Source: a virus
DNA: 40,240 nucleotides
IMG/VR virus record: IMGVR_UViG_3300027851_000063
Span: 1 to 40,240 of that record
Strand: one strand, 5' to 3'
Shown: in pieces, positions 3,017 through 31,357 of the stretch
Layout of the letters: each line of letters opens with the position of its first letter
Numbering within the stretch: the first letter of the stretch is position 1
Program-made: the position numbers and the translations under genes
Notes under the pieces: generated by a model
Database searches by the model: none
Told to the model about the DNA's origin: nothing
What the model saw: only the letters and a program-made list of their open reading frames with translations

Positions 3017-3096
3017 CTCAAATATATTCAACTTTCTCAAGGTTGAAAAATTGCGGACGTAATTTCGCTTTACAAACATACAAAACTATATTTAAT

Positions 3097-3845: not shown

Positions 3846-3894
3846 CTATATTTGCACAAAGGCTTTCTTTACATGGTTTGCGAGTCTTTTACCC

Positions 3895-3922
3895 AAAGAG
3901 ATACTACGGTGTCTCTTTTTTT
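3895..3922 (+). terminator. Rho-independent terminator
   Basis: AAAGAGATAC (3895-3904) pairs with GTGTCTCTTT (3909-3918) over ten pairs with one T-G wobble and a TACG loop, and the T-run reaches 3922. It would end transcription from the gene at 3609. It also lies about 40 bases after a TATATTTG at 3847-3854. Confidence 0.82.
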
Positions 3923-4022
3923 GTGCCTATATGTAAACCATGTAAACGTAGTATCTCATTTATGGTTTACGCCGAAAGGCTATAGTTTACAGGGCTTAGC
4001 GCCAAAATAAACCATGTAAACC

Positions 4023-4057
4023 ATTATTATACTAAAAGATTAATATTATATAATAAT
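4023..4057. other. AT-rich hairpin in control module A
   Basis: ATTATTATA (4023-4031) pairs with TATAATAAT (4049-4057) around a 17-base loop containing CTAAAAGATTA. The counterpart in module B (19543-19570) keeps the pairing and the loop core while one stem pair changes from T-A to C-G. This suggests selection on the structure or on a dyad-symmetric binding site. AT-rich dyads of this kind are typical of origin unwinding regions. Confidence 0.6.
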
Positions 4058-4189
4058 AGGGGATATACAATACATAACCCGTAATAAGCACCCGTAAATG
4101 CGTATATACGCCTATAAGAGATTAACGTTTACATGGTTTACGTTTCTGCCATTTTCGGGCTTAAAAGATTGATTTGCAAACACTTGACA

Positions 4190-4217
4190 CGTAAACCATA
4201 AAAAAGCATGGTTTACG
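4190..4217. promoter_or_regulatory. Inverted-repeat operator candidate upstream of early promoter
   Basis: CGTAAACCAT (4190-4199) and ATGGTTTACG (4208-4217) form a perfect ten-base inverted repeat with an eight-base spacer. It ends 23 bases before the -33 element at 4241. Position and symmetry suggest a dimeric regulator site, with the HTH protein encoded at 4486 as the obvious candidate binder; this is inference. Confidence 0.55.
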
Positions 4218-4240
4218 CTGAAAATAAAGTAAAAAATATT

Positions 4241-4271
4241 TTTGGTTTTTATAAAAATAGGTTTATATTTG
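4241..4271 (+). promoter_or_regulatory. Bacteroidota-type promoter (TTTG-N19-TATATTTG), early region
   Basis: TTTG at 4241-4244 and TATATTTG at 4264-4271 are separated by 19 bases, a textbook match to the -33/-7 promoter of Bacteroidota. Transcription would start near 4276 and run into the broken small gene at 4295 and the regulator at 4486. The sequence around it (AATAGGTTTATATTTGCT) is nearly repeated in the promoter at 31084-31114. Confidence 0.85.
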
Positions 4272-4294
4272 CTGAAGTAAAAAACAAAGAAACT

Positions 4295-4485: not shown

Positions 4486-4893
4486 ATGAACAACCTAAAA
4501 ATACAAGAGGCAATTACCGCCAGCGGCTTAGATAAGCCAGCTATTGCAACGCACTTGTTCCCGTCTAACCAATACCCTGTTATGGCCCTTGACAGGGTTA
4601 TGAAGGGCGACGGCGACCTAAACTCAACACAGATAACTAAACTATCTGAATTGTCAGGTATGCCGGTTGCCGCCATATTTGGCGAAACCTGGCGCAAGGC
4701 TGAAAGCAACGGCAAGCTAACCCGTTTCACGAATGGCGAGTACACCGCAGAATTTGACCGTACCGACTGGACTACCCGCGTGTACCACAATTCCGAGTTA
4801 ATCAGCGAAACGGTTATACACAGCGGCACTATAGCGCTTAGCGTTTACCTGCAAGAGATTGACAAAATAATCGCAAATTTAAAAAGTAAATAA
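4486..4893 (+). CDS. HTH-like DNA-binding regulator
   Basis: A 135-residue protein whose first 65 residues look like a Cro/C1-type helix-turn-helix: an IQEAITASGLDKPAIATHLF stretch, then a RVMKGDGDLNSTQITKLSEL segment matching the recognition-helix and following region of this fold. The remaining half is beta-rich (SNGKLTRFTNGEYTAEFD, then a TRVYHNSELI stretch) with an unknown role, perhaps dimerisation or effector sensing. It is the first intact gene after control module A and its promoter, the classic place for a regulator acting on the adjacent operators. The start at 4486 follows AACACAACT. No integrase accompanies it, so it need not be a lysogeny repressor; timing of early and late transcription is a reasonable alternative. 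Confidence 0.7.
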   Translation: MNNLKIQEAITASGLDKPAIATHLFPSNQYPVMALDRVMKGDGDLNSTQITKLSELSGMPVAAIFGETWRKAESNGKLTRFTNGEYTAEFDRTDWTTRVYHNSELISETVIHSGTIALSVYLQEIDKIIANLKSK

Positions 4894-7704: not shown

Positions 7705-7773
7705 GGGGCGGTAGCTAATTGGTAAGTCGCATTTTGGCCAAATGAGGTGTAGGTTCGAGTCCTGCCCGCTCCA
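7705..7773 (+). tRNA. tRNA-like element, degenerate, isotype uncertain
   Basis: The acceptor stem is complete: GGGGCGG (7705-7711) pairs with CCGCTCC (7766-7772) with one G-T wobble, followed by A7773. The T arm is canonical: GTAGG/CCTGC around loop TTCGAGT. The D region has the TAGCT-AATTGGT form but only a three-pair stem. The anticodon arm is the weak part: GCATT-TTGGCCA-AATGA gives a seven-base loop with anticodon GGC (Ala) but a mismatched first pair, whereas CATTT-TGGCC-AAATG pairs fully but leaves a five-base loop. At 69 bases it is shorter than a normal tRNA, and CCA is not encoded (ACAA follows). It may be a decayed tRNA, a shortened functional one or a tRNA mimic. It lies 14 bases before the polymerase gene. 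Confidence 0.6.
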
Positions 7774-7787
7774 CAAATTTTCAAACC

Positions 7788-10471: not shown

Positions 10472-12868
10472 ATGACAGATAAAATAAACATAGCAACCGG
10501 CTTGCGGTACAACTCGCCAAGCTGGAAAAATAAAAAGGTTACGTGGCCTGAACTTGTGCAAAGGTTAAGCGAAACTGTAAAGACTAACGAAACACTTAAA
10601 GAGTTTTTAGGCGCAACCCGGGAAGAGCAACTGCGTATTAAAGACGTAGGCGGTTTTGTGGGGGGCTACCTAAGAGGCGGTAAGCGTAAGCACGACACCG
10701 TTGTACACCGCCAACTGCTTACGCTCGATATAGATTTCGCGCATAAAGATTTTTGGGATGACTTTACATTAATGATGGACTGCGCCGCCGTGCTGCATGC
10801 CACGCATAAGCATTGCGAGGCTTCGCCCCGTTACCGCCTAATCATACCGCTTAACCGCGAATGTACGCCCGACGAATACGTGGCTGCAGGCCGTAAGGTT
10901 GCCGGGGATTTAGGTATTGACCTTTTCGACAACACTACGTTCGAGCCTAACCGCCTAATGTTTTGGCCTTCTACTCCTAAGGATATGGAGTACTACTTTA
11001 AAACGCAATCGGGCCCGGCTGTAGACGTTGATGAGGTACTTGCCACTTATGCCGACTGGAAGGACAGCAGCCTGTGGCCTACCTCGCAAACCAAGTTCGA
11101 CCAGGTACGGGCGCATGCCGATAAGCAGGAAGACCCCGAAACTAAAAAAGGTATTGTAGGCGCATTCTGTAGGGCGTACACCATGACTGAGGCAATTACT
11201 AAATTCCTTACCGAAGAGTACGAACCTACCGACGTAGAGAATAGGTACACTTATACCAAAAGCACGACGGCGGCAGGGCTTATTGTATACGATGATAAGT
11301 TCGCCTTCTCGCACCACGGCACCGACCCGTGCAGTGGCAAGCTGTCAAACGCTTTCGACCTGGTACGCGTGCACCGCTTCGGGCATTTAGACGAAGGCGC
11401 CACCAGTGGGAAGGCTACTAAAAGCTACAAGGCTATGGACGACTTCGCCCGTGAGGACAAAGTGGTGCGTAAGCTAATAGCCTCCGATGCTATAAGCGAA
11501 GCACGTTACGACTTTAACGAGGACATGCCCGAAGACATAAGTGAAGCAGACCCCGAAGCGGAGGACATAACCTGGATGCAGGATTTAGAAATCGACGGTC
11601 GTAAAAATTACCTGTCAAGTGCCACAAACCTCAACTTAATATTTGCCAACGACCACCGGCTTAAAAAGCTGTTCAGATTAAACGACTTTGATAGTAAACG
11701 ATATGTGTTTAATAACCTGCCGTGGCGTAAAGTGCCGAAGCCTGAGCCTGTACGCAATGTAGACTACTCCGGCATCCGGAACTACATCGAAAGTATCTAC
11801 GGCATTACCGGAGCGCAAAAGATTGAGGACAGTATAAGCCTTGAGTTTGAAAAAAACCGCTTTCACCCGGTAGTAGACTACCTAAGGGGTTTAACATGGG
11901 ACGGCGTGCAGCGTATCGATACGCTACTGATAAACCTGTTCGGGGCAGAAGATACCCGGTACACCCGTGAGGCTATGCGTAAATGGCTTGTAGGCGGTGT
12001 TGCACGTGTGATGCAGCCAGGCATTAAGTTCGAGCTTGTACTGGTATTGGTAGGCGCGCAGATACAAGGGGCGGGTAAAAGTTCGTTCCTGAAAGCGTTA
12101 GGCCGTCAATGGTTTAGTGATAGCTTCAGCACGCTACAGGGCAAAGAGTCTTTCGAGCAGTTGCAGGGCGCATGGATTATTGAAATGGCAGAACTTGCAG
12201 GGCTTAAGAACGCCGAAGTAGAAGGCATACGCCACTTCATATCTAAACAAGAGGACACGTTCAGGCCTGCATACGGCAGGACAACTGAAACCTATCCGCG
12301 CCAAAGTATATTCGGCGGCACCACAAACCGCCGTGACTTCCTGAAAGACCCAGTAGGCAACCGCCGCTTCATGCCTATAGACACCAAACCCGTGAAGCTG
12401 GTAGATAACCCCGAGTTGTGGCAGTTCATAAATGACGAGGCTACTATTAACCAGGTATGGGCAGAAGCCGTAACGCTGTACAAAGCCAAAGAGCCGCTAT
12501 ACCTTAGCCGCGAAGCGGAAGAGATTGCAGCCGTTGAGCAAATGAAGCACAGCGAAACAGACGAACGCAAGGGCATAATAGAGCAATACCTTAGCACTCC
12601 TGTATCTACTGACTGGGATACTAAAGACGAGTTAGAGCGAAGGGCTTATTTAGCTGACCCGCTTGTAAAAGGTACGGTAGTAAGGGAGTACGTTTGCACC
12701 GCTGAGATATGGTGTGAATGCTTAGGCAAAAAACGTGAAGACCTTGACCCGTACAAAAGTAGGGAACTGAATACGATAGTCAGAAATATAGAAGGCTGGG
12801 AGTTTATCAATTCAACACGTAACTTTAGCCTTTACGGCAAACAGAAATATTATCAACTTAAAAAATAA
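10472..12868 (+). CDS. Primase-helicase: PrimPol-like N-terminus and VapE-type ATPase
   Basis: A 798-residue replication protein. The N-terminal third resembles an archaeo-eukaryotic primase: LTLDIDFA with Asp86 and Asp88, a THKH near residue 112 and RYRLIIPLNR. The middle is a linker region. The C-terminal half is the virulence-associated-E P-loop ATPase, with VLVLVGAQIQGAGKSS around residues 524-538 (Lys536 in Walker A), a Walker B WIIEMAEL and the downstream phrases YGRTTETYPRQSIFGGTTNR and GNRRFMPID. It would prime and unwind DNA for the family A polymerase encoded upstream. The start is in the context TTTTAAACCATG, three bases after the methylase stop. Confidence 0.9.
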   Translation: MTDKINIATGLRYNSPSWKNKKVTWPELVQRLSETVKTNETLKEFLGATREEQLRIKDVGGFVGGYLRGGKRKHDTVVHRQLLTLDIDFAHKDFWDDFTLMMDCAAVLHATHKHCEASPRYRLIIPLNRECTPDEYVAAGRKVAGDLGIDLFDNTTFEPNRLMFWPSTPKDMEYYFKTQSGPAVDVDEVLATYADWKDSSLWPTSQTKFDQVRAHADKQEDPETKKGIVGAFCRAYTMTEAITKFLTEEYEPTDVENRYTYTKSTTAAGLIVYDDKFAFSHHGTDPCSGKLSNAFDLVRVHRFGHLDEGATSGKATKSYKAMDDFAREDKVVRKLIASDAISEARYDFNEDMPEDISEADPEAEDITWMQDLEIDGRKNYLSSATNLNLIFANDHRLKKLFRLNDFDSKRYVFNNLPWRKVPKPEPVRNVDYSGIRNYIESIYGITGAQKIEDSISLEFEKNRFHPVVDYLRGLTWDGVQRIDTLLINLFGAEDTRYTREAMRKWLVGGVARVMQPGIKFELVLVLVGAQIQGAGKSSFLKALGRQWFSDSFSTLQGKESFEQLQGAWIIEMAELAGLKNAEVEGIRHFISKQEDTFRPAYGRTTETYPRQSIFGGTTNRRDFLKDPVGNRRFMPIDTKPVKLVDNPELWQFINDEATINQVWAEAVTLYKAKEPLYLSREAEEIAAVEQMKHSETDERKGIIEQYLSTPVSTDWDTKDELERRAYLADPLVKGTVVREYVCTAEIWCECLGKKREDLDPYKSRELNTIVRNIEGWEFINSTRNFSLYGKQKYYQLKK

Positions 12869-13580: not shown

Positions 13581-13843
13581 GTCTATTTAAACATATAAAA
13601 GGAAAGGGTAAACCATTAAAGGTGGTAGCCATAAAACTTACTGACGAAGCTGATACTGAAGAATTAACACCTGGAAAAGAATACACCGTGACTGGGTACT
13701 TCGATAATTACTACTGTGAAGTATACGGCTGGGGTTGTGAAATTGACGGTAATACCGGAAAAAGCGAAAAGCTTATAAACGAGAAAAATGATTTTGAAGT
13801 GGTAGGCGGCAGCTGGGTAGTAACCGAAAGAGCACCGGAGTAA
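13577..13843 (+). CDS. Small beta-rich protein of unknown function (88 aa)
   Basis: An 88-residue protein with a beta-strand pattern: LKVVAIKLTD, then TPGKEYTVTGYFDNYYCEVY, then WGCEIDGN, and an FEVVGGSWVV ending. The TPGKEYTVTG phrase resembles small SH3-like phage proteins with a GKxYxV strand, but I cannot assign a family or function. It is coupled at both ends, by ATGA with the VRR-NUC gene and by TAATG with the helicase gene, so it is made with the DNA-processing enzymes and may be an accessory of one of them. It starts in the TTTAAACCATG context. Confidence 0.72.
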   Translation: MSLFKHIKGKGKPLKVVAIKLTDEADTEELTPGKEYTVTGYFDNYYCEVYGWGCEIDGNTGKSEKLINEKNDFEVVGGSWVVTERAPE

Positions 13844-15228
13844 TGAACGAGTCAAACCTGCACGGCTACCAGCATACTGCTGTAAGCCACATAATGGAAA
13901 ATACGCACGGGGCGCTGCTGCTCGAAATGGGCTTAGGCAAAACCGTGTCGACCCTTACCGCTATCAACAAACTAATTTATGAAGAGCTGGAAATAAACGC
14001 CGTGCTTATCATAGCCCCTAAGCGGGTAGCTGAAAGTGTGTGGAGTGCTGAGATAGGCAAGTGGGAACACCTGAAGCACCTTCGTATATCAAAGATATTA
14101 GGCACCGAAAAGCAGCGCAAGGCTGCCCTGCGGCAACCGGCAGACGTGTACACCATAGGCCGGGATAACGTGGCGTGGCTGTGCTCGCAGTTTGGAGGCA
14201 CCCGCACCCCGTTTGATATGCTTGTCATTGACGAACTATCTAGTTTCAAAAACCCGCAGTCGGTACGCTTCAAAGCATTAAAGGCGGTACAGCCCTCGTT
14301 TAGCCGTGTTGTCGGCCTTACCGGTACACCTGCGCCCAATGGCCTTATCGACCTGTGGAGCCAAATATATCTACTCGACCGGGGGGCAAGACTGGGCAAG
14401 TTTATCACTACCTACCGCGAAACGTACTTTAGGCCGGATAAACGTAACGGCTCGATAACCTACAGCTATAAACTTGAAGAGTCGGGGGAGCAGCAGATAT
14501 ATGATAAGATAGGCGACATTTGTATGAGCATGAAAGCTAAAGACTATTTGGATTTACCCGAGCGTATCAACAATATTGTGCGTATTGATATGCCGCCCGA
14601 CTTGCAAAAGCAATACAACGACTTTGAAAAGGAACAGGTTATGAACCTGGTAAGTGCTGAGGGCGATGATAAAGAAATATCTGCCCTGAATGCGGCTGCC
14701 TTATCGAACAAGCTGCTACAGTTTGCCAATGGCGCTATGTACGATGAGAACAAGGTTTACCACGAGGTACACGATTTAAAGCTGCTGGCTTTAGAAGAAC
14801 TTATCGAAGCGGCTAACGGCCACCCGGTGCTTATTGCGTGGACGTACAGGCATGACCGCGACAGGATGCTGGAGAAGCTAAAGAAGTACAAGCCGCAGGA
14901 ACTTAAAACGGATCAGGATATAAACGACTGGAACGCCGGCAAGATACAAGTTATGATGATGCACCCGGCTTCAGGAGGCCATGGCCTTAACTTGCAGGCA
15001 GGCGGTAATATAATCGTATGGTTCGGGCAGACGTGGAGTTTAGAACTTGAGCAGCAATTCAATGCAAGGCTTGACCGCCAGGGGCAGAAAAATGCCGTTG
15101 TAGTGAACAAGCTGGCAGTCGTTGGCACTATGGATGAAGACGTGCTGAAAGCGCAGGAGACGAAAGGTAATAACCAAAACAGACTTATGGATGCCGTCAA
15201 GGCTAAAATTAATAAATATCTAAAATAA
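13843..15228 (+). CDS. SNF2-like DEAD/DEAH-box helicase
   Basis: A 461-residue superfamily 2 helicase of the SNF2-like phage group. Motif I is MGLGKT (residues 29-34, Lys33). Motif Ia is VLIIAPKRVAESVW. Motif II is DELSSF (130-135), the phage variant of DEAH. Motif III is LTGTPAPNG. In the second RecA domain are VLIAWTYRHDRDR, then MMHPASGGHGLNLQAGGN (motif V) and QQFNARLDRQGQ (motif VI, near 403-414). These enzymes remodel protein-DNA complexes or unwind DNA in phage replication and occur beside VRR-NUC genes. Translational coupling by TAATG links it to the small gene before it. Confidence 0.93.
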   Translation: MNESNLHGYQHTAVSHIMENTHGALLLEMGLGKTVSTLTAINKLIYEELEINAVLIIAPKRVAESVWSAEIGKWEHLKHLRISKILGTEKQRKAALRQPADVYTIGRDNVAWLCSQFGGTRTPFDMLVIDELSSFKNPQSVRFKALKAVQPSFSRVVGLTGTPAPNGLIDLWSQIYLLDRGARLGKFITTYRETYFRPDKRNGSITYSYKLEESGEQQIYDKIGDICMSMKAKDYLDLPERINNIVRIDMPPDLQKQYNDFEKEQVMNLVSAEGDDKEISALNAAALSNKLLQFANGAMYDENKVYHEVHDLKLLALEELIEAANGHPVLIAWTYRHDRDRMLEKLKKYKPQELKTDQDINDWNAGKIQVMMMHPASGGHGLNLQAGGNIIVWFGQTWSLELEQQFNARLDRQGQKNAVVVNKLAVVGTMDEDVLKAQETKGNNQNRLMDAVKAKINKYLK

Positions 15229-16333: not shown

Positions 16334-16363
16334 TTTGTAATTTAAAAAATTGCTTTATATTTG
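16334..16363 (+). promoter_or_regulatory. Bacteroidota-type promoter (TTTG-N18-TATATTTG)
   Basis: TTTG at 16334-16337 and TATATTTG at 16356-16363 are separated by 18 bases in an AT-rich gap that directly follows the HNH gene. The ATG at 16389 lies 25 bases downstream. The surrounding sequence (AAAAATAGTTTTGTAATTT) is close to that of the promoter at 21660. Confidence 0.83.
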
Positions 16364-19338: not shown

Positions 19339-19733
19339 ACGTATATCGTTTACGCTGCAACCCCTGCAAACACTGGGCATTCCATGCCTGTAAACCATGT
19401 AAACGATAAAAAGCCCAAACTTTTGAAAACAGTGTTTTGCCAAAAAACGTAAACCATGTAAACCATGTAAACGTACTATGGTTTACCGGGAAACCCCTGT
19501 AAACACTGGGCTTAACGCCAAAATAAACCATGTAAACCATACTATTACTAAAAGATTATATATAGTAATAATAGGGAATATATACACATAAATGTACCTG
19601 TAAAACGCGTAAAACGCCTATACGCCTTATAAGAGTTTTATGGTTTATGGTTTACAATTGGTCAAAAAACGGCCTTAACGTTTTGATTTGCAGTGTGTTA
19701 AACGAGAAACGTACTCTTTTTTTATGGTTTACG
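19334..19733. repeat. Control module B: second GTAAACCAT/ATGGTTTAC repeat array
   Basis: About 400 bases without a gene, carrying a perfect inverted repeat CGTAAACG/CGTTTACG at 19334-19354, GTAAACCATGTAAACG at 19390-19405, three tandem units at 19448-19473, ATGGTTTAC at 19478-19486, two units at 19524-19540, ATGGTTTATGGTTTAC at 19640-19655 and ATGGTTTACG at 19724-19733. An 18-base repeat CCCCTGyAAACACTGGGC occurs at 19361-19378 and 19494-19511. The part from 19508 to about 19704 is homologous to module A. The last repeat sits 33 bases upstream of the terminase promoter. Origin iterons or late-gene operators are the main options. Confidence 0.87.
19543..19570. other. AT-rich hairpin in control module B
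   Basis: TATTACTA (19543-19550) pairs with TAGTAATA (19563-19570) around a 12-base loop starting AAAGATTA. The counterpart at 4023-4057 has a different stem sequence with pairing kept, including a T-A to C-G exchange, and the same CTAAAAGATTA core. Confidence 0.6.
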
Positions 19734-19765
19734 CTTTGTTTCGTTGTGAAGCAATGAAAATATTT

Positions 19766-19795
19766 TTTGTAGTTTGGAATTTATTCGTATGTTTG
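19766..19795 (+). promoter_or_regulatory. Bacteroidota-type promoter of the terminase operon
   Basis: TTTG at 19766-19769 and TATGTTTG at 19788-19795 are separated by 18 bases, matching TTTG-N18-TAnnTTTG. The terminase small-subunit ATG at 19813 is only 17 bases from the -7 element, so the 5' leader is about a dozen bases at most. The upstream repeat at 19724-19733 is a candidate activator or repressor site. Confidence 0.82.
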
Positions 19796-19812: not shown

Positions 19813-20280
19813 ATGGCAGTTAAAAAACCAGGAACATTGAAACCCATAGGCAGGCCGAAAGCGATAGCCTCCCCGGATAACATGCTTGAGCTTTTTTACG
19901 AATACCGAACCGAAGTTAAGTCGAAACCATTTTTGGTAAAGGACTGGGTGGGCAAAGATGCCGAGCCGGTTTATCGGGAAAAAGAAAAACCCCTGACACT
20001 TGAGGGTTTTGAGAATTACCTTTTCGAGAAAAAGATTATAAGCGATATAAGCGATTACTTTGAGAACAAAGATAACAGATACGCGGATTTTGTCCCCGTC
20101 TGCCGCGCTGTGAAACGCTTTATCCGCCAAGACCAAATCGAGGGCGGCATGGCCATGATTTACAACCCGAGCGTAACGCAGCGCCTCAACAACCTGAAAG
20201 AGCAAACCGATGTAACTACCGGCGGCGAAAAAATAAACGTGATAGCGTTAGGCAATGGGTCTATTTCCGAAACAGAATAA
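19813..20280 (+). CDS. Terminase small subunit (P22 gp3-like)
   Basis: A 155-residue protein resembling the gp3-type DNA-packaging small subunit: N-terminal basic GRPKAIASP, LELFYEYRTEVKSKPF, a KPLTLEGFENYLFEK motif, and the IEGGMAMIYNPSVTQRLNNL end segment characteristic of this family. It would recognise the packaging site and hand DNA to the large subunit, whose gene overlaps it by 26 bases. The pac site in this class often lies in or near the small-subunit gene, so the repeat-rich module B just upstream could also serve packaging. The start is in the context TTTAAACCATG. Confidence 0.88.
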   Translation: MAVKKPGTLKPIGRPKAIASPDNMLELFYEYRTEVKSKPFLVKDWVGKDAEPVYREKEKPLTLEGFENYLFEKKIISDISDYFENKDNRYADFVPVCRAVKRFIRQDQIEGGMAMIYNPSVTQRLNNLKEQTDVTTGGEKINVIALGNGSISETE

Positions 20281-28096: not shown

Positions 28097-31075
28097 ATGG
28101 CTGAGAAAATAGAAATTGCCGCGCTCGACATTGACGCAAGCCTGCTTATCCAATCCACTGCGGCGGTAGGTAAACAAATTACAGACCTGCGCGCTAAAAT
28201 GAAAATGCTGCGTGACGAGGGTAAGCAAAATACCGTAGAGTATACCGTCATGAGCGCCCAGGTAAAGAACCTATCAAAAGATTACAACCAGCTCAATGGC
28301 GCGGTACAAAGCCGCATTACTACTGATGGTAAACTGCTTTCGGTGGAGCAAGCAATGGAGAAAGCTCTTAAAAGCCAAAATGTAACCACTAAGGGCGCGG
28401 TAGACAATAATAAAGAACTTAGGCAGATACGTCAAAACCTTGACGCTACAACCGTGTCGGGTGCCGCCGCCATAGCTAAACTCAACGCAAAAATAAATGA
28501 AAATACCCAGTTCATAAAAGAAAACGGCGACGCTAACGAGCAGCGCATAGCCGGGATTGGTCAGTACAAAGAACAAATATTGCAGGCTTATGCTGAGATA
28601 CAAAAGGAGAAAACCGCTTTGCAAGCGCTCAATAAAGAACTTGAGGTAAGCAAGGAAACGCTCGACGAAAATTCAGACGCGTGGAAAGTTATAAACGTAC
28701 AAATCAATCAAAATAATATACAGATAAACAACCTCAACGACCAAATGGCGAAGTCGAAGGGGGAGTTTACCGACTTTAATGACGTGCTGAGCCTGGCTAA
28801 CGGCGGCCTTTCCGGCTTTAAGGAACGTGCGGAAGCGGCTGGCGGCACAGGCCCGCTACTCGGTAATGCCTTCAAAGCTATGACTACGGGGCTTTGGGGC
28901 ATGGTTAAGGCCGGACTTGCTTTCATAGCTACGCCTTTAGGGCTTGCGCTTACCGCAATAGCTGTAGTTATCGCTTTAGTAGTAGGAGCTTTTAAGTTTA
29001 TGGTGGCCTCTATGAACAGTACCGAAGAGGGCAGCGACAAACTTGCAAAAGCAATGGCGTATGTTACCGGCCTGCTTAACGGCTTTTGGAAAATAATAAA
29101 ACCACTGGGCGAGTTTTTGGGTAAAGTATTTATCGCCTACCTGGAAGCGGTAGGCACCGCCCTTGACGAGTTAACCGAGGGTATTGCTAAAGCACTGGAC
29201 TTTTTAGGATTTACCGAGGCGGCTGCAGACCTGCGAGGCTTCAAAGAAGAGCTTAAAGCGTCAGCCCAAGCTGCCGCCGAACTTGCCGCTGCCGAGGCAG
29301 AATTGCAAAAGATGCAGCGTGAGGGTAAAAAAATACAACTTGACTACCAAAAACAAGCCGAGAAATTAAGGCAGCTGCGCGACGACGAAAGCAAGTCTAT
29401 ACCGGAGCGAATGAGGGCTAACGAGCAACTGGGCGCAGTACTGAAGGAACAGGCAAAAGCTGAGCTGGAAATAGCTAACCAGGCGCTACGTGTTGCTGAC
29501 TTGCGCATTAAGTCCGAGGGCGAAACTACTGAGGCGCTGGATAAACGCGCTGAAGCCCTTACCAATATAGCCGACATACAAGAGCGTATTACGGGGCAGG
29601 AGTCCGAGCAGCTGGCAAATCTGAACAGCCTACGCAAAGAGGCCTACGACAAAGAACGGGAGCGCCAACAGGGCATACGGGATGCGAGGCAGAAAACTCT
29701 TGACGACCTTATTGAAAAGCTGGAACTTGAAAAGGAAATATATGCGCAGGCCAGCGAGGGCAGGCTGCTTACCTACGATAAAGAAATTGAGAAAGCCGAT
29801 GAACTTTATAACAGGCAACTTGAAATTATACAAAAGCAAAAAGCGGCTAACGATGCCGCAGCTCAAAATGATTACGCGGCCAGTAAAAAGACCGGCGCGG
29901 ATAAGGCGGCGCTGCAAAGGCGTTTAGGTATTAACGAATTGGAATTAACCGCCTCTAAAAATGCGGCGCTGATAGAACTGGAAGCCGCTAAGCGCGAAGC
30001 GATAACCGCCGAAGCGGATTTGGAACTTGAACATCAAAAGACTTTAGCCAAAACAAGGCTCGACGGCAACGCCTTCCTGACTGACGAACTTGTACAGCAG
30101 GAAAAAGACAGGCTTGATAAACTTACACAACTTGAGGTTGAGAATTTAGGGCTTAAATACAATAACGGGCTTATTGCTGAGCGGGAATACTTAGACGCGG
30201 TTAATGCCCTGTATGTGGATAACGATAAGAAGCAGGCCGAGCTCGACGTGCAACGCAGACAGGCAGAACAAGACCAGCAGCTGCTCGACCTTGAGAACCA
30301 AAAAACGCAACGCTCTGCGGATTTTGAGGAGAACATGAAAATTGAGCAGCTGCAAGCGGATATAAGGCGCGAGCAGGAAATAGCCAACGCCAAAAAGACG
30401 GGTGCCGATGTAAGTTTAATAGAAGATAAATTTGCAAAGGACAGGGAAGACCGTGAGAAAGCAGTACAGACTTATAAAATGGAGCTTAGGGCGCAGGCCC
30501 TGGGCAACCTCGCAACTATATTCGGGCAGGAAACTACAGCCGGTAAACTCTTTGCCGCAGCGCAGGCCACTATCGACACCTACGTAGCCGCAAATAAAGC
30601 GTTAGCAGCATACCCTCCGCCGTTCGGTGCAATAGCCGCCGCCGCCTCAATCGCTACGGGTATAGGTAACGTTAAAAAGATAATGAGTACCAAAGCTAAA
30701 TTTGAAAAAGGGGGCTTGCAGGAGGTAGGCGGCAACCGCCACAGTGCAGGGGGTACAACTTTTCAGGGTTCTGACGGTACCCAGTTTGAGGCAGAGCGGG
30801 GCGAACTTATCGGCGTTATGAACAGGAACGCGGCAAAGCACTTCATGGCCTTTAATAATGCTTTCCCGGCAGGAGCAGGCGGCGCACCAAACTATTTCGC
30901 CAGCGGCGGCTTTGTAAACCGTGCGCAGCCACAAGGCATAAACTTTGATATCGACGAGCTGGCGGCAAAGATTGCAGCAGCCAACGCCTCAATGCCTGCG
31001 CCCGTTGTAGCGGTAAGTGATATAAATGTCGTGTCGGGCAGGATAGTTAAAGTGCAGGAGAATGCAAATTTTTAA
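28097..31075 (+). CDS. Tail tape measure protein
   Basis: A 992-residue protein with the hallmarks of a tape measure: long Ala/Glu/Lys/Gln-rich coiled coils (about residues 30-210 and 395-830), a hydrophobic membrane-compatible segment near residues 278-300 (LTAIAVVIALVVGAFKFMVA), and the C-terminal pattern AAAQATIDTYVAANKALAAY followed by PPPFGAIAAAASIATGIGNV and a Gly-rich FEKGGLQEVGGNRHSAGGTT end. At about 0.15 nm per residue it predicts a tail near 150 nm. The hydrophobic segment may help DNA cross the host inner membrane. It starts in AACGATATGG, eight bases after the previous gene. Confidence 0.95.
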   Translation: MAEKIEIAALDIDASLLIQSTAAVGKQITDLRAKMKMLRDEGKQNTVEYTVMSAQVKNLSKDYNQLNGAVQSRITTDGKLLSVEQAMEKALKSQNVTTKGAVDNNKELRQIRQNLDATTVSGAAAIAKLNAKINENTQFIKENGDANEQRIAGIGQYKEQILQAYAEIQKEKTALQALNKELEVSKETLDENSDAWKVINVQINQNNIQINNLNDQMAKSKGEFTDFNDVLSLANGGLSGFKERAEAAGGTGPLLGNAFKAMTTGLWGMVKAGLAFIATPLGLALTAIAVVIALVVGAFKFMVASMNSTEEGSDKLAKAMAYVTGLLNGFWKIIKPLGEFLGKVFIAYLEAVGTALDELTEGIAKALDFLGFTEAAADLRGFKEELKASAQAAAELAAAEAELQKMQREGKKIQLDYQKQAEKLRQLRDDESKSIPERMRANEQLGAVLKEQAKAELEIANQALRVADLRIKSEGETTEALDKRAEALTNIADIQERITGQESEQLANLNSLRKEAYDKERERQQGIRDARQKTLDDLIEKLELEKEIYAQASEGRLLTYDKEIEKADELYNRQLEIIQKQKAANDAAAQNDYAASKKTGADKAALQRRLGINELELTASKNAALIELEAAKREAITAEADLELEHQKTLAKTRLDGNAFLTDELVQQEKDRLDKLTQLEVENLGLKYNNGLIAEREYLDAVNALYVDNDKKQAELDVQRRQAEQDQQLLDLENQKTQRSADFEENMKIEQLQADIRREQEIANAKKTGADVSLIEDKFAKDREDREKAVQTYKMELRAQALGNLATIFGQETTAGKLFAAAQATIDTYVAANKALAAYPPPFGAIAAAASIATGIGNVKKIMSTKAKFEKGGLQEVGGNRHSAGGTTFQGSDGTQFEAERGELIGVMNRNAAKHFMAFNNAFPAGAGGAPNYFASGGFVNRAQPQGINFDIDELAAKIAAANASMPAPVVAVSDINVVSGRIVKVQENANF

Positions 31076-31083
31076 AAATAATT

Positions 31084-31114
31084 TTTGGTAATTACAAAAA
31101 TAGGTTTATATTTG
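31084..31114 (+). promoter_or_regulatory. Bacteroidota-type promoter of moron cassette 3
   Basis: TTTG at 31084-31087 and TATATTTG at 31107-31114 are separated by 19 bases, directly after the tape measure gene. The sequence AAAAATAGGTTTATATTTGCT is shared with the early promoter at 4241-4271. It drives a group of six small genes up to the terminator at 32726. Confidence 0.86.
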
Positions 31115-31138
31115 CTTATAATTTAAAATTTATAAACC

Positions 31139-31357
31139 ATGATTGAAGTATTTCAAAGCTACGAGCATTACGTTTCGTGGTTCTCCGAGAATTTGTACAA
31201 AACAAAAAGTGCCCAGCAGAAACTGCCGGAATTAGGGCTTGCGACAATATACAACAACGATACCGTAGGCGAACCCGTACGAGCCCTATCCCGACAGACT
31301 TTTTTACAATTGGAGTCAGAGAAAGGGTTTATACAGGTACCAAATCTTGCAGATTAA
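31139..31357 (+). CDS. Small moron-like protein of unknown function (72 aa)
   Basis: A 72-residue soluble protein starting MIEVFQSYEHYVSWFSENLY. It has a helical N-terminus and an LGLATIYNNDTVGEPVRALS strand-turn segment. It starts in the TATAAACCATG context 25 bases after a strong promoter. No family recognised. First gene of moron cassette 3, which separates the tape measure gene from the capsid genes. Confidence 0.68.
   Translation: MIEVFQSYEHYVSWFSENLYKTKSAQQKLPELGLATIYNNDTVGEPVRALSRQTFLQLESEKGFIQVPNLAD

Follow-up and report, generated by a model that had tools for sequence, protein, structure and literature searches.

Paired iteron modules with a satellite-like core as putative VapE-bound replication origins in a phage genome

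The replication origins of phage-inducible chromosomal islands (PICIs) were described in 2018 as having a layout not known from any other bacterial replicon (PMC6092414), and the Rep protein of the Staphylococcus aureus pathogenicity islands (SaPIs) is reported to bind, through its C-terminal domain, iterons located directly downstream of its own gene (PMC7581432). The Cch2 protein of the staphylococcal cassette chromosome element SCCmec, a relative of SaPI5 Rep, similarly possesses a C-terminal domain, which binds to short direct repeats located 3' of the helicase gene (PMC7581432). Paired origins are known from phage SPP1, where gp38 binds both oriL and oriR, two sites separated by ~13 kb, and concatemer synthesis is proposed to be set off by forks that stall at oriR (PMC6316719). 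The present analysis concerns a virus record of the IMG/VR type (IMGVR_UViG_3300027851_000063; 40,240 nucleotides, hereafter the window), in which two related repeat modules, A (3868-4271) and B (19345-19732, upstream of the terminase gene terS and 15.5 kb from A), were compared with these systems.

Judged by comparison of sequences, modules A and B are quite likely to represent a duplicated iteron-type origin of replication that is bound by VapE, the primase-helicase encoded by the phage. The origin part of this interpretation is well supported, because the core is PICI-like, the position directly 3' of vapE is used recurrently in other phages, and the genome carries the same iteron in two copies of the module. 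The preliminary description of the window had recognised module A alone, and had offered either a replication origin or an operator cluster for the helix-turn-helix (HTH) protein encoded at 4486; the first proposal has gained from the comparison, the second has lost ground, and the copy before terS is additional to both.

The layout of the core is the same as that published for the SaPI/PICI pri-rep origins (PMC6092414, PMC7581432), and the element likewise encodes an initiator of the VapE/PriRep family, with the helicase fold and a C-terminal DNA-binding domain. Unlike those origins, the modules occur in a phage rather than a satellite, are present in two copies at operon junctions with promoters, and are not adjacent to the initiator gene; because they do not lie immediately 3' of vapE, they are not classed as a PICI origin. 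The Cch2 origin differs in having three 5-nt iterons behind the gene, at a single site on a chromosomal cassette. With SPP1 (PMC6316719) the phage shares two similar repeat-plus-AT-rich modules in one genome, 13-15 kb apart, a circularised genome of ~40-44 kb and a single putative initiator, whereas SPP1 deploys gp38/gp39/gp40 (DnaB-type) in place of a VapE-type primase-helicase and carries oriL within the initiator gene. The comparison with SPP1 is offered as a functional analogy only, vapE being the replication gene identified in the window.

Exact copies of the iteron, GTAAACCAT or ATGGTTTAC, occupy six sites in 3868-4271 (3933+, 3962-, 4016+, 4133-, 4191+ and 4208-), and three further sites carry one mismatch (3873-, 3982- and 4007+), so that the seven or more sites initially claimed are reached if one mismatch is allowed but not by exact matches. 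The whole window contains 14 exact copies of GTAAACCAT, against a mean of 0.49 and a maximum of 2 in shuffled sequences, and the clustering of the 9-mer within 350 bp reached seven, a value to be compared with 100 shuffles in which no 9-mer exceeded three. All but one of the 14 lie within A and B (19345-19795 when the promoter of B is included): of the eight outside A, seven are in B (six within it and one completing it) and one is inside an open reading frame (ORF) at 13608. The features of module A, compared where indicated with the two close relatives of the window phage (G001 and G002), are as follows.

3868-3990, no strand assigned: left iteron array, with sites at 3873 (minus, one mismatch), 3933 (plus), 3962 (minus) and 3982 (minus, one mismatch)
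3895-3924, plus strand: terminator hairpin (3895-3918) and T-run, ending the upstream (lysis) operon at the left edge of the module; hairpin kept in both close relatives
4007-4141, no strand assigned: core, identical in the window and both close relatives, with variable flanks
4007-4024, plus strand: left tandem iteron pair of the core, ATAAACCAT-GTAAACCAT, 9-bp period
4019-4058, no strand assigned: AT-rich block, presumed unwinding element, 90% AT in 40 nt and in the top 0.4% of its 6-kb neighbourhood
4100-4112, no strand assigned: GCGTATATACGCC, counterpart of a TACGCG-like element present in 11 of 14 cores compared
4124-4141, minus strand: right inverted iteron pair of the core, 4124 with two mismatches and 4133 exact
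4190-4217, no strand assigned: two head-to-head iterons forming a perfect inverted repeat in the interval between core and promoter, kept in both close relatives
4241-4271, plus strand: Bacteroidota-type promoter of the early operon, TTTG-N19-TATATTTG, invariant in relatives

The inverted repeat (10-nt arms at 4190-4199 and 4208-4217, 8-nt spacer) and the promoter were both located as first reported, and the repeats, whose absence from related phages had been named as grounds for abandoning the earlier proposals, proved to be conserved when the same interval was compared. Module B comprises the following features.

19345-19500, no strand assigned: left iteron array, with sites at 19345 (minus, one mismatch), 19390 (plus), 19399 (plus, one mismatch), 19449 (plus), 19458 (plus) and 19478 (minus)
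19523-19655, no strand assigned: core, with tandem pair 19523/19532, AT-rich block, CGCG element and inverted pair 19640/19647
19724-19732, minus strand: distal iteron, adjoining the late promoter
19766-19795, plus strand: Bacteroidota-type promoter ahead of terS, identified as a match to the promoter pattern
19813-20280, plus strand: terS, terminase small subunit, the first gene 3' of the module

Across their shared part the two modules are 74% identical. In each, the core of 133-135 bp consists of a tandem iteron pair with a 9-bp period, an AT-rich block, a CGCG-like element and an inverted iteron pair, and in both there are extra iterons to the left of the core and beside the promoter. The AT-rich hairpin noted previously does exist in module A (~4022-4058), but conservation of the AT block as a cruciform or hairpin was rejected, the equivalent dyad of module B being broken in the two close relatives; it is AT-richness, rather than the hairpin, that looks to be conserved there.

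A separate observation at the left edge of module A is that the 5' arm of the terminator hairpin (3895-3908) is complementary to 3947-3960 (14 nt, 93%), a possible alternative, antiterminator-like pairing, which G001 retains by a matching change on both sides and in which G002 has one mismatch.

Among phages and prophages with VapE, distant ones included, a short bidirectional repeat array is present closely 3' of vapE in many, and cores located directly 3' of the gene carry lineage-specific iterons. A four-copy core with a score of 17-18 followed vapE in 69 of 182 loci (random segments, 3 of 189), and a 6-mer repeated at least six times in both orientations was recorded there in 80 of 184 loci as against 7 of 836 random segments. 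Named phages with such an array include Enterococcus phiFL4A, Staphylococcus phiSauS-IPLA35, Clostridioides phiCDKH02 and Bacteroides Bacuni_F1. The iteron varies from phage to phage (e.g., GTATCC, GTTGCA, GTCAAC, GTTACC and GTAAAC), often presenting GT followed by C three to four bases later. Three contigs (L091, L095 and L097) on which no VapE homologue was detected also carry dense arrays of GGTTTACA/GGTTGACA, oriented both ways.

Within the clade to which the window belongs, the arrays instead precede the HTH gene, at 1.2-3 kb from the exonuclease gene on its upstream side (position A), and/or terL, at a distance of ~1 kb (position B), and relatives of the window phage have a core before the HTH gene, before terS or at both places rather than behind vapE. 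A core with a score of at least 16 was found upstream of the HTH gene in 17 of 23 related loci, compared with 10 of 92 random segments. Both positions are occupied in the window, G001, G002, Croceibacter phage P2559Y, Elizabethkingia phage TCUEAP1 and contig L297, and in each genome the iterons of the twin modules match while differing between lineages: GTAAACCAT in the window, G001 and G002, TAAACAAT in P2559Y, TGTCTCAAA in TCUEAP1 and GTAAACA in L297. P2559Y and TCUEAP1 resemble the window in the placing of their modules and differ from it in the iteron; the annotation tables retrieved for these two phages contain no origin feature.

The candidate initiator is encoded between the two modules, and two features of its gene are relevant.

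10472-12868, plus strand: vapE, primase-helicase and proposed origin-binding initiator (PF05272, phrog_256, PDB 7pds)
12794-12865, plus strand: VapE residues 775-798, predicted wing of the C-terminal winged helix, the segment most associated with iteron sequence

VapE matched SaPI PriRep1 (PDB 7pds) in sequence with an E value of 7.7e-71 over residues 382-726. The final 150 residues of VapE, modelled with AlphaFold2 (pLDDT 90.7), ended in a winged helix, and this C-terminal model also matched 7pds, in which PriRep1 was solved with double-stranded DNA (E 2.7e-07). The protein was then scanned, using a permutation test, for segments in which VapE proteins of phages sharing an iteron resemble each other more closely than expected from the identity of the whole proteins. 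The top window consisted of the last 24 residues, 775-798 (z 4.1, family-wise p 0.005, n = 69), which gave z 3.2, p 0.0002 and family-wise p 0.10 in an independent subset. On these sequence comparisons, VapE probably reads the GTAAACCAT iterons.

A number of results weigh against a VapE-bound origin at A and B. No array follows vapE in the window, the modules lying ~6.5 kb upstream of its start and ~6.5 kb downstream of its end, and about half of the vapE loci examined are without a clear array behind the gene. Bacteroides phage BF503P4 (L188), with a VapE 53% identical, has no clear iteron core at position A. The permutation test removed shared ancestry only partly, and an 'ST' dipeptide rule for readers of GTAAAC, which by inspection held in six training lineages, was weakly confirmed on independent loci (3 of 7 versus 2 of 42, p 0.017); with only three of seven independent lineages fitting, the strict rule was dropped to a weak lead. 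Cumulative GC skew, a check named in the preliminary description, marked neither A nor B as an origin and was uninformative.

Were the modules to act as origins, the C-terminal winged helix of VapE would bind the GTAAACCAT iterons, and the protein, once assembled at both convergent iteron pairs, would melt the intervening AT-rich block, whereupon theta replication would start, presumably at A, with the participation of the phage-encoded polymerase A and single-stranded DNA-binding protein (SSB). That both A and B fire is the least certain step. Module B might alternatively behave as in SPP1, with initiator bound at a second origin stalling the fork and triggering concatemer synthesis, and the promoter-proximal iterons may allow VapE to modulate early (A) and late (B) transcription.

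It is correspondingly possible, though not probable, that A is the sole working origin and B an array for the same initiator with some other role, such as fork arrest with a switch to concatemers, control of the late promoter or titration. Fork stalling at oriR of SPP1 provides a precedent (PMC6316719), and the core of A is invariant across the three genomes compared (the window and its two close relatives) while that of B varies in its AT block. However, the core of B is complete, has a strong AT-rich block and is accompanied by as many iterons as that of A, and one related locus (L315) has an array at B with none detected at A.

An explanation without replication would have the HTH protein, or another phage regulator, bind both modules and coordinate early (A) and late (B) transcription, with replication beginning elsewhere. 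The gene concerned is the first larger one after module A.

4486-4893, plus strand: HTH gene, with an N-terminal fold resembling lambda repressor and C protein (AlphaFold2 model, weak Foldseek matches)

Both modules are directly upstream of Bacteroidota-type promoters, the dyad at 4190-4217 is of the kind expected for a dimeric regulator, the model supports the HTH fold, and a homologue follows position A in most relatives. The motif is not, however, confined to places where the HTH gene is present: GTAAAC arrays lie directly behind vapE in eight loci (L092, L099, L193, L210, L213, L348, L352 and L354, some of them partial contigs) in which no HTH homologue was detected, and this operator explanation is less likely for that reason. 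Moreover, the conserved unit is the pair-AT-pair core, well upstream of the promoter, and iteron identity is associated with the VapE C-terminus. The explanation is accordingly considered unlikely, although the HTH protein could possibly have a local role at the early promoter. In BF503P4, a 540-bp gap (14429-14969) lies ahead of the HTH homologue.

A packaging (pac/cos) site recognised by TerS, with A as its copy, would account for the position of B directly upstream of terS, but is highly improbable and was rejected, since the array does not track terminase genes: it is absent from the 28 other terL-bearing loci examined (including L101, with a terL 80% identical but only 842 bp of upstream sequence) and from loci that combine related terminases with a different replication module, and in many phages this core follows vapE, a long way from the terminase genes.

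Returning to VapE-bound origins, a tentative generalisation, about as likely as not to hold, is that VapE phages share a PICI-style origin with a short iteron read by the wing of the VapE C-terminus and diversifying between lineages, and that a Bacteroidota clade has retained a pair of these origins, one ahead of the early operon and the other ahead of terS, with iterons that change together and that possibly link replication to late transcription or concatemer formation. What differs from the PICIs is the occurrence of this layout in phages with a VapE module and its duplication, with matched iterons, at two operon junctions. Nothing directly relevant to the origins of VapE phages or of Sfi21 was found in open-access full texts, and an earlier description elsewhere is possible. 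That this layout is common in phages with VapE modules is relevant to the ancestry of satellite origins, and to how the initiators of phages and of satellites keep away from one another's origins or take them over. Twin origins with iterons matched over ~15 kb would also provide a clear and testable case of coevolution between initiator and site, in which iteron and VapE tail can be compared over many genomes.

The phage genome in the window is complete, having assembled circularly at ~40.1 kb with a terminal repeat of 127 bp, and encodes an endolysin, a DUF2800 exonuclease, an SSB of the Enc34/Gp2.5 type, DNA polymerase A, the VapE primase-helicase, an SNF2 helicase and terminase. The host is inferred to belong to the Bacteroidota because TTTG-N-TANNTTTG promoters are enriched and the named relatives infect Croceibacter and Elizabethkingia. 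The wider promoter pattern TTTG-N17-20-TANNTTTG matched eight times in the window against 1.2 expected, further matches being located at 16334, 21660 and 25127 on the plus strand and at 3073 and 13480 on the minus strand. A 44-bp copy of the promoter region of module A (4230-4273), 89% identical and devoid of iterons, is located at 31073-31116 ahead of an ORF at 31139, and similar copies are present in both close relatives. An RNA element was considered and rejected, a tRNA being the only Rfam family found in the window. This tRNA-Ala (GGC) gene occupies 7705-7774, between the SSB and polymerase genes; at the matching place in P2559Y, in a 720-bp interval where no genes are annotated, lies a tRNA-like gene for which an unusual anticodon of four bases was called.
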